Assembly: GCA_902588625.1 (NCBI GenBank)
Contig: CACIPU010000003.1
Location: 1-64,000 of the forward strand
Direction of reading: 5' to 3'
Origin: an uncultured Pelagibacteraceae bacterium
Lineage (GTDB): Bacteria; Pseudomonadota; Alphaproteobacteria; Pelagibacterales; Pelagibacteraceae
DNA length: 64,000 bases
Shown: piece by piece, positions 1,624 to 62,307 of the stretch
Position numbering within the stretch: the stretch's first letter is position 1
Layout: every line of letters starts with the position of its first letter
Position numbers and translations under genes: made by a program
The notes under the pieces: generated by a model
Told to the model about the DNA's origin: nothing
The model's database searches: none
Seen by the model: the letters and a program-made list of their open reading frames with translations, nothing else

Positions 1624-2090
1624 TGAAAATAAATAAAATTATTAGTTTATTAATTAAAAAAAAATGTTCAATTTCTGTGGCTGAATCCTGCACTGGTGGC
1701 TTGCTTTCTAATTCCATAGCCTCAATAGATGGTGCATCTAAAGTATTTAATATGGGATTGGTAACTTACTCTAATAAAGCTAAAAAAAGTATTTTAAAAG
1801 TTCCACAAAAAATAATAACTAAATATGGAGCTGTGAGTTTTCAGTGTTGCTTATCTATGGTTAATAACCTTAGTAAAATTAGCAATAGTAACATCTGTAT
1901 TTCAATAACGGGAATAGCGGGTCCCAAAGGTGGTTCAATAAAAAAACCTGTCGGATTAGTTTTTATCGGTATTAAAAAAAATAACAAAACCTATATAAAT
2001 AAATATTTATTTAAAAATAAAGGAAGAAATAAGATTCAACAGCAAGCTGTTAAAAAATCTTTAGAATTAGTTTTTGGATTTATTAAATAA
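1623..2090 (+). CDS. pncC: CinA C-terminal domain protein, NMN amidohydrolase-like
   Basis: Stand-alone CinA-C domain (155 residues), the family that includes nicotinamide mononucleotide deamidase (PncC/YgaD) used in pyridine nucleotide recycling. Diagnostic motifs are SVAESCTGGLLSN near residue 18, GLVTYSNKAK near 45 and ISITGIAGPKGGS near 100. The N-terminal molybdopterin-binding half of full CinA is absent, as is usual for the short form. The start is coupled to the pgpA stop (TAATG). Its 3' end overlaps the convergent ratA/coq10 gene by 24 bp. The family is clear; the NMN deamidase activity is inferred from relatives. Confidence 0.88.
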   Translation: MKINKIISLLIKKKCSISVAESCTGGLLSNSIASIDGASKVFNMGLVTYSNKAKKSILKVPQKIITKYGAVSFQCCLSMVNNLSKISNSNICISITGIAGPKGGSIKKPVGLVFIGIKKNNKTYINKYLFKNKGRNKIQQQAVKKSLELVFGFIK

Positions 2091-2522
2091 ATCTGATGCT
2101 CTGCTCTCAAAAGCATTAGCAATCTTTACAAGACCTATATCGAAAGATTTTTTCATTAAAATATTTAAAATTTTATTTTTTAATTCAAAGTTAATGTGAA
2201 AATCTATTTGGCTTTTTTTACCAATATCTTTAAAAAACCATCGATTTTCTAAGTGTTTAATTGGTCCTCCAATATTAGTTACAAAAATTGAGTCTTTATT
2301 TTTGTCATAAATTACTAAGCTTTTATAAGTCTCTTTAAAAAAACTTTTTCCAATAGTGAGGTCTGCTATAATTTCGATTGTACTACCTTTGCTATTTTTG
2401 CTATGAATTTTTCCATCAATACACCAAGGCACAAATTCAGGGTATTTTTCAATATCAAGAACCATTTTAATTAAATTATCTTTTGTACAAGGTATGTCTT
2501 TTTTTAAATAAGCTTTGGGCAT
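2067..2522 (-). CDS. START/polyketide-cyclase-like protein, COQ10/RatA family
   Basis: A 151-residue single-domain protein of the COQ10-like START superfamily. The N-terminal part has the typical [14 protein letters not shown] stretch near residue 26, which in this family follows the first helix of the lipid-binding fold. Alphaproteobacterial members next to lipA are usually annotated as ubiquinone-binding COQ10 homologues, and the enterobacterial homologue is called RatA; I infer a quinone-chaperone role. It overlaps the end of lipA by 19 bp, which fits the same operon, and converges on and overlaps the CinA-C gene by 24 bp. Confidence 0.82.
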
Positions 2523-3442
2523 TCAGATTGTTCTTCTCTTAGCCTTTTCATTTTAGAAAAATCCTCGTCTGCATGATATGATGATCTCGTTAATGGTGAA
2601 GATGATACAATTAAAAAGCCTTTTGTTAGAGCTATTTTTTTTAGTTCTTCAAATTCATCAGGATGGACATATCTATTCAATGGATAATGTTTAACAGTTG
2701 GTTGAAGATATTGTCCAATAGTCAAAAAATCTACATTAGCAGATAATAAGTCGTCCATTACTTGGATAATTTCATCTTTTGTTTCACCAAGACCCAACAT
2801 AATTCCAGATTTTGTAAATATTTTATTATTAATTTGTTTAGCAGATTTTAATAAATCAATTGAGGAGAAATACCTAGAACCAGGCCTCACTTTTCTATAT
2901 AAACTCGGTACAGTTTCTATGTTGTGATTAAAAACATCTGGATTCGCTGCAACAACTTTTATATAAGAGTTTCCCTTTCGTAAAAAATCAGGTGTTAATA
3001 CTTCTATAGTCGTGTTTTCATTAATTTTTCTTATAGCTATTATGACTTCTGAAAAGTGTTGCGCTCCTCCATCATCTAAATCATCTCTATCGACTGAAGT
3101 AATAACCACATGTTTTAAATTTAATTCTTTTGTAGCTTGAGCAATTTTATTTGGTTCCAAAGGATCTAAATCAACTGGCTTGCCTGTTCTAACATTACAA
3201 AAAGAACATGCCCTTGTACATGTGTCTCCCATAATCATAAAGGTTGCGTGTTTTTTACTCCAACATTCTGAAATATTAGGACAGCTAGCTTCTTGACATA
3301 CTGTATGAAGTTTTTTTCTATTAATAATTTCTTTAGTTTTAAAATAATTTTTTGTATCTAATAATCGTGACCTAATCCATCTTGGTTTTTTTTTTATTAA
3401 ACTTATTGGATTATTAATTTTTTCTGGATGTCTCAACTTCAT
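2504..3442 (-). CDS. lipA: Lipoyl synthase
   Basis: Radical-SAM enzyme that inserts two sulfurs into protein-bound octanoyl groups to make the lipoyl cofactor of 2-oxoacid dehydrogenases and the glycine cleavage H protein. Both cluster motifs are present: the auxiliary [12 protein letters not shown] (CX4CX5C) near residue 49 and the radical-SAM CTRACSFC (CX3CX2C) near 75. The C-terminal RSSYHADE carries the conserved serine that ligates the auxiliary cluster. The 312-residue length is normal. It lies 2 bp after ftsB; in many alphaproteobacteria the pdh genes sit between these two, and here they do not. Confidence 0.97.
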
Positions 3443-20241: not shown

Positions 20242-20766
20242 TTATTTTAAAGCTATTGAAGGAAGTACCTTATTAAGTTTATCAACTATGATTTTAGTTA
20301 TATCGTTTGATGAATTACCCGCTAAGACAGTCTTTTTGTCCACAACTAATGATATATTATTTTCTTTAATATACGCTTGTAAAAGAGGTTCGATGCTTTT
20401 AATTAGTGTAGAGCGTGCTTCTGCCCTTTGAGTAGCTATTTTATCTAACGATGCTCTTCTTTGTGACTGGTAATCAATCACTTTTTTTCTTAGGGCATCA
20501 CTTTTCTTTACATACTCTTCTTTTGACAAAATTGTTTTTTTAGTTAGCAAATCTGATTCTTCCTTTTTTAAATTTTGTTCCATATCTGAATATTTTTTTG
20601 AATTATCTTTCAATGATTTCTTTAAAAACTCTTGTGCTCCTTTTCCAGCTTTACTTTCATTTAAAACGTATTTTAAATCTAAAAATGCAATTTTATCTTC
20701 TGCAAAAGTATTAGTACTTAAAATAAGTAAAAAAGTAATTACAAAAAATCTTACGAAATATTTCAT
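20242..20766 (-). CDS. skp: Periplasmic chaperone Skp/OmpH family
   Basis: A 174-residue secreted protein. Residues 1-22 (MKYFVRFFVITFLLILSTNTFAED) are a signal peptide ending near FAED. The mature N-terminus KIAFLDLKYVLNESKAGKGAQEFL matches OmpH/Skp, and a long Lys/Glu-rich coiled coil (about 50-125) forms the arms of the trimer that holds unfolded outer membrane proteins. Its start shares one base with the bamA stop (TAATG), so it is coupled to its client-assembly machine. Confidence 0.92.
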   Translation of the reverse strand: MKYFVRFFVITFLLILSTNTFAEDKIAFLDLKYVLNESKAGKGAQEFLKKSLKDNSKKYSDMEQNLKKEESDLLTKKTILSKEEYVKKSDALRKKVIDYQSQRRASLDKIATQRAEARSTLIKSIEPLLQAYIKENNISLVVDKKTVLAGNSSNDITKIIVDKLNKVLPSIALK

Positions 20767-59219: not shown

Positions 59220-59831
59220 TTAAGATCTTTTTTCCACAACTTCATCTATCAATCCAAAACTCTTGGCTTCGTTTGGAGTCATAAAGTTGTCCCTTTCTAG
59301 GGCTTTCTTAATTTCCTGTTCACTTTTTTTTGTATGTTTAGAATAAATCTTATTCAATCTATCTTTTAATGATAATATTTCTTTAGCATGAATTTCAATA
59401 TCTGTGGCTTGACCTTGATAACCTGCAGATGGTTGGTGAACCATAATTCTAGAATTAGGTAATGAAAATCTTTTTCCCTTTTCGCCAGCAGATAATAAAA
59501 AAGAACCCATTGAAGATGCTTGACCGATACACAAAGTTGAAACTGGAGGTTTTATATATTGCATAGTGTCATAAATACCAAATCCAGATGTTACTAATCC
59601 TCCTGGACTATTAATATAAAAAGATATTTCTTTTTTTGGGTTTTCAGATTCTAAAAACAATAGTTGAGCAGTAATTAAAGTTGAAACATTATCGTTTACA
59701 GGACCAACTAAAAAAATTATACGCTCTTTTAATAACCTAGAATAAATATCATAGGCTCTCTCACCTCTATTTGATTGTTCAACAACCATTGGGATCAAGT
59801 TATTCATATTTTCTTCAATTTTATTATTCAT
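59220..59831 (-). CDS. clpP: ATP-dependent Clp protease proteolytic subunit ClpP
   Basis: Serine peptidase of the ClpXP machine, 203 residues. The catalytic triad is Ser in [14 protein letters not shown], His in [13 protein letters not shown] and Asp near [25 protein letters not shown] and [17 protein letters not shown] are typical. 35 bp after tig. Confidence 0.98.
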
Positions 59832-59866: not shown

Positions 59867-61285
59867 TTACTTTTTTCTAATTTTTTTATTTTTTTTTACT
59901 ATTTTAGAGGCTTTTTTTAGTTTTCCAGTCTGTTTCTTACCAGGAGATTTTTCACTTTTTTTATTTTCATGGTTGTGATCGTGGTTATGTTTTAGGTCAT
60001 GTTCTTTTTTTAAAATTTTTTCAGCTTCTTGAAGTGAGATAACTTTTTTTGTTTGTTTGGATTTTTCTTTAATTAAGTTTAAAATTTTTTCTTCATAAAT
60101 ATTTCCTCTTAGACTTGAGGCTGCTGCAGGATTTTTTTGATAATAATCCAAAATTTGTTTTTCTTGCCCTGGCATAGATTGAACTTGTTTTTGGATTTCG
60201 TTTTTTAATTCTTGTTCTTCAACTTTTAATTTATTAGCCTCTCCCAATTCGTTTAGTATCAAACCTAATTTGATCCTTTTTTTTGCTATTTTTAAATTTT
60301 CATTTTTATTTTTTTCAATGTCTTCTTTTTTTAAACCCTGAGTAATTATTGACAACTCTTGATTTAGAAGGTTATCAGGTATTTCAACATTATGAATTTT
60401 TTCTATTTGGTTTAATATATTATCTTTCGATATTGCATCTAGACTCATTTTATATTGACTTTGAATTTGTTTATTTACCATTATTTTTAAATCATTCAAA
60501 TCTTTTGCTCCAAGATTTTTAGCAAATTCATCATCAATTTTTGTTGCTTCAGGTTTTTTAATATTTAAGATTTTACACTCAAAATTTGCCTTTTTATTTG
60601 CATATTCTTTTTTGGGATAATTTTCGGGAAGTGTCACCGTAACTTCTTTTATATCTTTTTTTTTAGCTCCAACTAATTGATTATCAAAACCTTTTATAAA
60701 TAAATCTTTACCTAAAACTATTTGTGTGTTCTTTCCTTCGCCACCATCAAATTTTTTATTTTCAACTTTGGCTTCATAATCAAATATTACTAGATCTCCT
60801 ATTACGGCAGTTTCATTTTCCGTTTTATCTTTAAAATTATTTTGATTTTTAGCTATATCTTCTAGCTTTGTTTTTGTTTCCTCTTCTGTGATTTTGACTT
60901 CATAATCTACAAATTTAATATTTTCTAAAGATTGAAGTTTTATAGATGGCAATTCATCTATCTCTAATGTGTAAGTTAAATCTTTTCCTTCACCATATGA
61001 TTTAAGATCTAATTTTGGTTGACCCGCAACTTTAATTTTTTTTTCTTCTAAGGCTTTTGTAGAAGTTTCTTTTAAAATCTTTTCTAAAACTTCTCCATAA
61101 ATAGCTTTACCAAACTGTCTTTTTAAAACTTCTACTGGAACTTTCCCGGGTCTAAAACCTTTTAAGTTTACTGTTTTACTTAATTCGTTCAATCTTATTA
61201 CCATTTGCTCGTCGATAATTTTTTTTTCAACTAAAATTTTAAGATTAGTCTTCAGTCCTTTTTTGGAATCAATAGTTACTTTCAT
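59867..61285 (-). CDS. tig: Trigger factor with His/Lys-rich C-terminal tail
   Basis: Ribosome-associated chaperone and peptidyl-prolyl isomerase, 472 residues. The N-terminal ribosome-binding domain has LKGFRPGKVPVEVLKRQFG, with the GFRxGK-P signature near residue 43; the FKBP-type PPIase domain (about 155-240) has VIGDLVIFDYEA and IKGFDNQLVGAKK; the helical C-terminal domain follows. From about residue 426 there is a low-complexity tail with HNHDHNH and many Lys, beyond the usual family end. The start lies only 6 nt after the tRNA-Leu CCA. Confidence 0.95.
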   Translation of the reverse strand: MKVTIDSKKGLKTNLKILVEKKIIDEQMVIRLNELSKTVNLKGFRPGKVPVEVLKRQFGKAIYGEVLEKILKETSTKALEEKKIKVAGQPKLDLKSYGEGKDLTYTLEIDELPSIKLQSLENIKFVDYEVKITEEETKTKLEDIAKNQNNFKDKTENETAVIGDLVIFDYEAKVENKKFDGGEGKNTQIVLGKDLFIKGFDNQLVGAKKKDIKEVTVTLPENYPKKEYANKKANFECKILNIKKPEATKIDDEFAKNLGAKDLNDLKIMVNKQIQSQYKMSLDAISKDNILNQIEKIHNVEIPDNLLNQELSIITQGLKKEDIEKNKNENLKIAKKRIKLGLILNELGEANKLKVEEQELKNEIQKQVQSMPGQEKQILDYYQKNPAAASSLRGNIYEEKILNLIKEKSKQTKKVISLQEAEKILKKEHDLKHNHDHNHENKKSEKSPGKKQTGKLKKASKIVKKNKKIRKK

Positions 61286-61291
61286 AAATTC

Positions 61292-61376
61292 TGGTGGGCA
61301 AGAAGAGACTCGAACTCTTAATCCGTGAGGAACCGGTTCCTAAGACCGGCGCGTATACCAATTCCGCCACTTGCCC
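61292..61376 (-). tRNA. tRNA-Leu (anticodon TAG)
   Basis: 85-nt class II tRNA: acceptor GGGCAAG/CTTGCCC, anticodon stem CCGGT/ACCGG with loop CTTAGGA, long variable arm with TCC/GGA stem, T-stem AAGAG/CTCTT with TTCGAGT loop, discriminator A and encoded CCA. The tig start codon follows after GAATTT, so the two are probably one transcript. Confidence 0.97.
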
Positions 61377-61385
61377 GTGCACGAT

Positions 61386-61414
61386 TTATTATCAAATTAA
61401 AAGATAATGTCCAA
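61386..61414 (-). promoter_or_regulatory. Candidate promoter of tRNA-Leu/tig
   Basis: On the minus strand TTGGAC (61414-61409), 17 bp, TAATAA (61391-61386), directly after the EamA gene stop at 61420. The alternative -10 GATAAT (61393-61388) would be 15 bp from the same -35. Either would start just before mature tRNA-Leu. Confidence 0.4.
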
Positions 61415-61419
61415 GTCTA

Positions 61420-62307
61420 TTAAACAATTTTAATTTTACTACCCTTTTTTACAATATAAATTCCTATAATTACAGCTAACAACGAAATAATAACTTTTGG
61501 TGTAATTAATTCTCCTAAAATTAAAAAACCTAAAATTACCCCAAATATTGGTATTAGATATGCTACTTGGGACTGAAATACTAAACCGTTATGTTTCAAA
61601 ATATAAAATCTTAATAACCAGGCTATCCCAGTTGAAAAAATTCCAAGATATAGAAGAGAAATGGAAGAATCTAATCTTGGTGATAAATTCCATGGTTGTT
61701 CAATAAAAAAAGATATGGGCAATAATACTATAGATCCCCAAATTAAAATTGATGCAGTAACATTTTCATTTTTTTTATTACTAATTTTTAAAGTTAATAA
61801 CCCTCCAACAACATAAAATGTAGACCCACATAAAATTAACAAAGCTGAAATAAAATTATTTTTATTTATTAATATATTGTCAGAAAATAAAAAAATTATT
61901 CCTGAAAACCCCAATAAAACACCTAATGATTTTACTAAATTAATTTTTTCATTTTTGGTAAAAAAATGAGCTAAAACCGTAGCGCTCAAAGGAGTGCTAG
62001 CCATCAATATTGCAGCTAAATTACTTTGAATATTTTTAACTCCAAACGCTATAAGAAAAAAAGGTATTACTAAATTTATAACTCCAATAGATGCAAACCA
62101 ATACCAATCCTTCGAGAATGCTTCTATTTTAATTTTTTTTATATAACATAATAAAATTACTGGGATAGCTCCTAGAAAAATTCTTAAGAATGCAATCGTA
62201 AGTGGACCATATGAATAGGTGGCAATTTTTATATTAAAAAAAGCTGAAGCCCAAATCAGTGCAAGTAATATTAAGACAAAATAATCTAACGATTTAGCTT
62301 CTCTCAT
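61420..62307 (-). CDS. EamA/DMT-superfamily transporter
   Basis: 295-residue inner-membrane protein with about ten hydrophobic helices arranged as two EamA repeats (about 8-140 and 150-290). LIWASAFFNIKIATYSYGPLTIAFLRIFLGAIPVI and ASTPLSATVLAHFFTKNEKINLVKSLGVLLGFSGI are typical of the drug/metabolite transporter family. Substrate cannot be told from sequence; relatives export amino acids or other metabolites. Overlaps the YbaK gene by 4 bp. Confidence 0.88.
   Translation of the reverse strand: MREAKSLDYFVLILLALIWASAFFNIKIATYSYGPLTIAFLRIFLGAIPVILLCYIKKIKIEAFSKDWYWFASIGVINLVIPFFLIAFGVKNIQSNLAAILMASTPLSATVLAHFFTKNEKINLVKSLGVLLGFSGIIFLFSDNILINKNNFISALLILCGSTFYVVGGLLTLKISNKKNENVTASILIWGSIVLLPISFFIEQPWNLSPRLDSSISLLYLGIFSTGIAWLLRFYILKHNGLVFQSQVAYLIPIFGVILGFLILGELITPKVIISLLAVIIGIYIVKKGSKIKIV

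Follow-up and report, generated by a model that had tools for sequence, protein, structure and literature searches.

Introduction

In E. coli, a single promoter ahead of a tRNA serves both the tRNA and tufB, a translation-related protein gene, and the transcript is processed between the two. The intergenic leader before tufB is long, and ribosomes load on it in the normal way. The thrT/tufB region is covered in PMC5371648. A second arrangement is the tRNA punctuation of mitochondria, in which protein genes begin directly at tRNA 3' ends and excision of the tRNAs sets the mRNA 5' ends; most human mitochondrial mRNAs have no leader or a very short one (PMC9881170). Bacterial mRNAs with extremely short leaders are also known: in P. 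acnes, transcription commonly starts 10 nt or less before the start codon (PMC3848588), and 171 leaderless transcripts have been reported in S. meliloti (PMC3616915).

Here we describe a junction in SAR11 bacteria at which a tRNA-Leu(UAG) gene stands directly in front of tig, the gene for trigger factor. The junction is real, conserved and mostly ordinary in origin, with an interesting consequence. As in the tufB operon, a promoter is predicted upstream of the tRNA (in 60 of 68 loci) and none between tRNA and protein gene (by a scan of the window), and processing would take place between the two. Unlike the tufB leader, however, the SAR11 gap is 4-16 nt and contains no tetramer resembling a Shine-Dalgarno (SD) sequence, so that a leader with room for an SD is missing. 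The predicted tig leader (4-10 nt if the cut is at CCA) resembles those of the P. acnes and S. meliloti mRNAs, which lack an SD and have no more than 10 nt, if any, ahead of the start codon (PMC3848588, PMC3616915); their 5' ends, on the other hand, are primary transcription starts, whereas that of SAR11 tig would be made by cleavage. We found no report of the tRNA-Leu(UAG)-tig junction in the open-access literature that we searched.

Layout of the Locus

The window, a 64,000-nt stretch of DNA from an uncultured bacterium, is placed in the Pelagibacteraceae (SAR11) through named contigs. The locus lies on its minus strand and comprises the following features, in the direction of transcription.

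61420..62307, minus strand: EamA-type transporter gene, upstream of the tRNA (ORF; named by eye from the sequence)
61409..61414, minus strand: -35-like hexamer TTGGAC, opening the promoter-like element before the tRNA (sequence and conservation)
61386..61391, minus strand: -10-like hexamer TAATAA of the predicted promoter (sequence, conserved position)
61377..61385, minus strand: short 5' leader between promoter and tRNA, the expected RNase P leader (judged by position only)
61292-61376 (or 61295-61376), minus strand: tRNA-Leu(UAG) with encoded CCA (ARAGORN; Rfam RF00005, 59.9 bits)
61286-61291, minus strand: spacer GAATTT, 6 nt between CCA and ATG, without an SD (sequence)
59867..61285, minus strand: tig, trigger factor, 472 aa (ORF and TIGR00115)
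59220..59831, minus strand: clpP, next after tig (ORF; named by eye from the translation)

The CCA ends at 61292 and the tig ATG occupies 61285-61283; the 6-nt CCA-GAATTT-ATG junction claimed in the initial annotation is thus exact by ARAGORN, Rfam, the ORF and the sequence itself. The EamA-type gene is separated from the tRNA by 43 nt of intergenic DNA. Past tig, the gene order on the same strand is clpP, clpX and lon (identities read by eye), and the tig-to-clpP gap is 30-72 nt across SAR11, mostly 32-35.

The identity of tig is clear: the protein scores 342.9 bits against TIGR00115, the tig family, for which the cut-off is 180.2. Because its N-terminus, MKVTIDSKKGLK, aligns with the pattern at the start of other trigger factors (e.g., MQVTETxxEGLKR), the annotated start codon is correct. 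All 68 SAR11 tig starts are ATG, and SAR11 tig therefore has the AUG start of the leaderless class of mRNAs.

Conservation of the Spacing in SAR11

We compared 69 SAR11 loci, made up of 61 named contigs, seven further genomes and the window. The spacing seen in the window holds across this set: tRNA-Leu(UAG) lies 4-16 nt upstream of tig in 67 of the 69 loci, and chance or an assembly artefact can therefore be dismissed. The gap is 10 nt in 43 loci, 6 nt in 11, 9 nt in five, 7 nt in three, 5 nt in two, and 4, 12 and 16 nt in one locus each. Many of the 10-nt gaps come from one close clade, and the 35 distinct spacers are a better gauge of independence. The spacers consist of 54% A and 38% T, and no SD-like tetramer was found in any of the 67.

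The tight junction is not obligatory, since it is broken in two SAR11 genomes. One of them (G010, locus L015) has a tRNA-tig gap of 60 nt, and the other (AG-464-P07, L094) carries an insertion of about 0.9 kb between an intact tRNA-Leu(UAG) and tig. The inserted DNA (L094, ~1800-3000) contains a small ORF resembling a secreted protein and, directly before tig, a duplicated tRNA 3' half of the kind that integrative elements leave. In a separate case, G003/AG-414-E02 (L004/L093), the tRNA-Leu(UAG) sequence is clearly unlike that of close relatives, yet the promoter, the gap and tig around it have been retained, which suggests that the tRNA alone was replaced. A pattern scan also returned zero-gap matches, CCCACCAATGAAA, which we treated as chance; the one example checked (L081) had no tRNA.

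A Promoter-Like Element before the tRNA

The initial annotation saw no space for a promoter or an SD outside the tRNA. This is true of the spacer, but immediately before the tRNA there is a conserved site that resembles a promoter. Its form, TTGGAN-N16-18-TAnnn(A/T), ending 9-14 nt before the tRNA, is shared by the 60 loci mentioned above and absent from the other eight. In the window, TAATAA follows the -35-like hexamer after 17 nt and is preceded by TGA, which gives it the look of an extended -10 element. The gene on the far side of this element differs or diverges in other SAR11; in the complete genome G040, which represents a genus that also has the element, it is divergent and 89 nt away, so no source of sense transcription other than the promoter-like element is apparent there.

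It is conceivable that tig has a promoter of its own inside the tRNA. Its mRNA, leaderless or with a short leader, would then be a primary transcript made independently of the tRNA. Leaderless primary transcripts do exist in alphaproteobacteria, those of S. meliloti (PMC3616915) being the example. A scan of the tRNA and the gap, however, found no promoter-like pair on the minus strand, and the 3' half of the tRNA, the sequence of which is constrained by tRNA function, holds no TAnnnT box at the right distance. We consider an internal promoter very improbable. A genome-wide mark of leaderless transcription, -10 boxes 7 nt before ATG, was looked for and set aside, as there was only a weak rise at -8 to -11. 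Since a conserved promoter-like element stands ahead of the tRNA, the gap holds no such element, and no terminator-like site was found between 59200 and 62400, co-transcription of tRNA-Leu(UAG) and tig is well supported as a prediction from sequence.

Origin of the Short Gap

To see the junction in a wider context, we sampled one or two genomes per alphaproteobacterial family, 68 genomes in all. The pairing of tRNA-Leu(UAG) with a downstream tig is present in 57 of them, with a median gap of 69 nt; the gap is 16 nt or less in only five, one from SAR11 and the others from other small genomes. In other words, the pairing is ancestral and the closeness is derived. The junction is thus neither exclusive to SAR11 nor, given the two deviating SAR11 genomes, absolute. 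In a sister family, the pairing has a gap of 7-21 nt. The small non-SAR11 genomes at L287 and L288 (G219, G333), L306 (G346) and L291 (G324) have gaps of 7-16 nt, and two of these genomes are AT-rich (28-30% GC). This suggests that contraction of the gap was repeated in small genomes of other families, and the tRNA-tig closeness was apparently derived more than once.

Short spacers are the rule in SAR11. Among same-strand neighbours in G040, the CDS-CDS gap has a median of 2 nt and is 16 nt or less in 68% of cases, and the tRNA-to-CDS gaps are not shorter than these; a median intergenic distance of 3 nt has been published for HTCC1062 (PMC2704228). Ordinary spacers are also constant: the gap between clpP and the next gene, the second pair downstream of tig, is 87-92 nt in most loci, and that between hisS and its next gene is -23 in 25 of 26. 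We therefore rejected constancy of the spacer as a sign of function, because CDS-CDS gaps in the same loci are equally constant. A tRNA-tig gap that is short and constant needs no special function when ordinary SAR11 spacers are as short and constant, and these comparisons show that compaction alone accounts for the spacing.

One could stop at this point and suppose that streamlining had no functional consequence, that is, no special maturation of the 5' end and no coupling, with ribosomes using a mixture of cut and uncut RNA. The spacer lengths, their constancy and the same contraction in other small genomes all fit such a view. It explains the spacing, however, and leaves the production of the mRNA unexplained: the tRNA 3' end must be freed, and any cut near CCA leaves a very short leader, whatever the origin of the gap. 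We regard streamlining without consequence as rather unlikely. Streamlining as such and a 5' end made by cleavage are largely compatible.

Proposed Processing at the tRNA 3' End

Taking these lines together, we consider it probable, though far from secure, that tRNA and tig form one unit under the tRNA promoter, that an old pair was contracted by streamlining, and that cleavage yields a short-leader tig mRNA translated without an SD. Within this reading, the order of the genes, their spacing, its conservation, the promoter-like element and the lack of an SD are observed, and from them we infer co-transcription in vivo, the enzyme and site of cleavage, and the route of initiation. A promoter just upstream of the tRNA would drive a single tRNA-Leu(UAG)-tig transcript, the gap having shrunk to a handful of bases as SAR11 genomes were streamlined, which also happened where several other tRNAs meet a gene. 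RNase P would cut the primary transcript at the tRNA 5' end; the cut on the 3' side, within the A/U-rich spacer or beside it, would most likely be made by RNase E/G. The resulting tig mRNA would carry a 5'-monophosphate and no more than about 6 nt of leader, and it would be translated as leaderless or very-short-leader mRNAs are, without SD pairing. That the 5' end of the tig mRNA arises from such a cut behind the tRNA is plausible and the likeliest reading. The tRNA has to be freed, and any cut near CCA would leave very few bases ahead of the tig start.

Matches to RNase E/G exceeded the curated cut-off in all 10 genomes tested, and in E. coli a tRNA precursor is known to be cleaved by RNase E 2 nt past metU (PMC4191395). 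RNase Z was considered as the cutting enzyme and set aside: none of the genomes tested reached the cut-off of the RNase Z model, and the best SAR11 matches to it fit MBL/PhnP-like families far better. Other alphaproteobacteria tested also fell below this cut-off, which means that the absence is not firm. With RNase Z lacking a clear match, we prefer RNase E as the candidate enzyme. Matches to RNase PH were obtained in G046, G049 and G074 and none in G040, so trimming routes would differ among SAR11 lineages.

A Probable Translation Start without a Shine-Dalgarno Sequence

Ribosomes might instead start before any cut is made, on a precursor in which the tRNA serves as a structured 5' element. 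In the predicted fold of the precursor, the bases around the start codon are fairly accessible (mean P(unpaired) 0.69 over -3..+13), but the tRNA fold is predicted to be stable (-29.8 kcal/mol) and the gap offers no SD. Judging from ribosome structure, a folded acceptor stem 4-10 nt before the AUG would occupy the mRNA exit path of the ribosome, a linker of this length probably being too short for the 30S exit path. Moreover, tRNAs normally mature quickly. We regard initiation on the uncut precursor as improbable.

Initiation on a cleaved, very-short-leader tig mRNA would have to proceed without an SD. The 3' end of SAR11 16S rRNA keeps the anti-SD sequence CCTCC. Among G040 genes whose upstream neighbour lies on the opposite strand, however, SD-like motifs occur in 8%, against 8% in shuffled sequence (with crude, ATG-first gene calling), and this equality indicates that SAR11 translation tolerates the absence of an SD.

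Other tRNA-Gene Junctions

Trigger factor is not the only gene placed in this way. In the genome of the window, same-strand gaps of 4-13 nt separate tRNAs from seven different genes, and in G040, seven of the 16 same-strand tRNA-to-CDS gaps are 2-11 nt long. Besides tig, the junctions include the following.

tRNA-His, then hisS: gap 5 nt, window's genome (G000 C1:72778-74191, L034/L327)
tRNA-Pro, then NDUFS4: gap 8 nt, window's genome
tRNA-Met, then a FabH-like gene: gap 6 nt, window's genome
tRNA-Met, then a gene of no known identity: gap 4 or 13 nt, window's genome
tRNA-Leu(CAA), then an AMP-binding enzyme gene: gap 7 nt, window's genome
tRNA-Lys, then a methyltransferase gene: gap 12 nt, window's genome
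tRNA-Gln, then a CCA-adding/poly(A) polymerase-family gene: gap 3 nt, G040 C1:1060416-1061690 (L231:416-1690)
tRNA-Leu(UAA), then an NAD kinase gene: gap 4 nt, G040

Many SAR11 tRNAs thus have a gene 2-13 nt downstream, and the initial proposal that trigger factor output is tied to tRNA-Leu fares unevenly: co-transcription and the conserved short gap stand, the specificity for tig falls, and regulation of tig in particular by the tRNA is unsupported. The broader pattern is more interesting than tig alone, and its tightest case is hisS. In all 30 SAR11 genomes retrieved (L034/L327, L328-L356), tRNA-His(GUG) lies 4-5 nt ahead of hisS, its own synthetase gene, and the hisS starts at these junctions are ATG; the set includes one truncated tRNA that ARAGORN did not call and one true ATG 3 nt beyond the start of the match. 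In 29 other alphaproteobacterial loci, no tRNA was found near hisS.

Several mRNAs in SAR11 would therefore begin directly after a tRNA, as in mitochondria (seven of 16 junctions in G040, seven genes in the window's genome and 30/30 for tRNA-His-hisS), and excision of the tRNA, if cleavage occurs as proposed, would set their 5' ends. The gaps, mostly 4-10 nt, nevertheless exceed mitochondrial leaders of 0-3 nt, and the 16S rRNA has not lost its anti-SD but keeps CCTCC. SAR11 differs further from mitochondria in that the gaps span 2-16 nt and concern only a subset of genes, and in that a promoter-like site belongs to the tRNA-tig unit itself. We tentatively propose a chromosomal form of tRNA punctuation, which we hold possible without favouring it: tig, hisS, the CCA-adding/poly(A) polymerase-family gene, NAD kinase, NDUFS4 and others would obtain their 5' ends only from tRNA maturation, with leaders of about 2-12 nt, and their output would follow tRNA transcription and processing, hisS being tied to its own tRNA-His. 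If this is true, SAR11, which ranks among the most abundant cell types on Earth, would give free-living bacteria a counterpart to the tRNA punctuation of mitochondria, and RNA cleavage would supply a natural set of very-short-leader mRNAs. It would also mean that the compaction of genomes alters mRNA production and the start of translation, and that synthetase and chaperone genes sit under tRNA promoters.

A tRNA-His precedes hisS in G040 as well. There, an odd tRNA-like sequence with a GTG anticodon, missed by ARAGORN, is found before hisS (C1 ~205070-205143); the tRNA-His of this genus looks diverged, alongside a diverged HisS (47% identity). Finally, tRNA-Met and the FabH-like gene occur twice in opposite orientation on one contig of the window's genome (L042/L043; G000 C12:4597-4670 and 20640-20713), as an inverted repeat or an assembly artefact.
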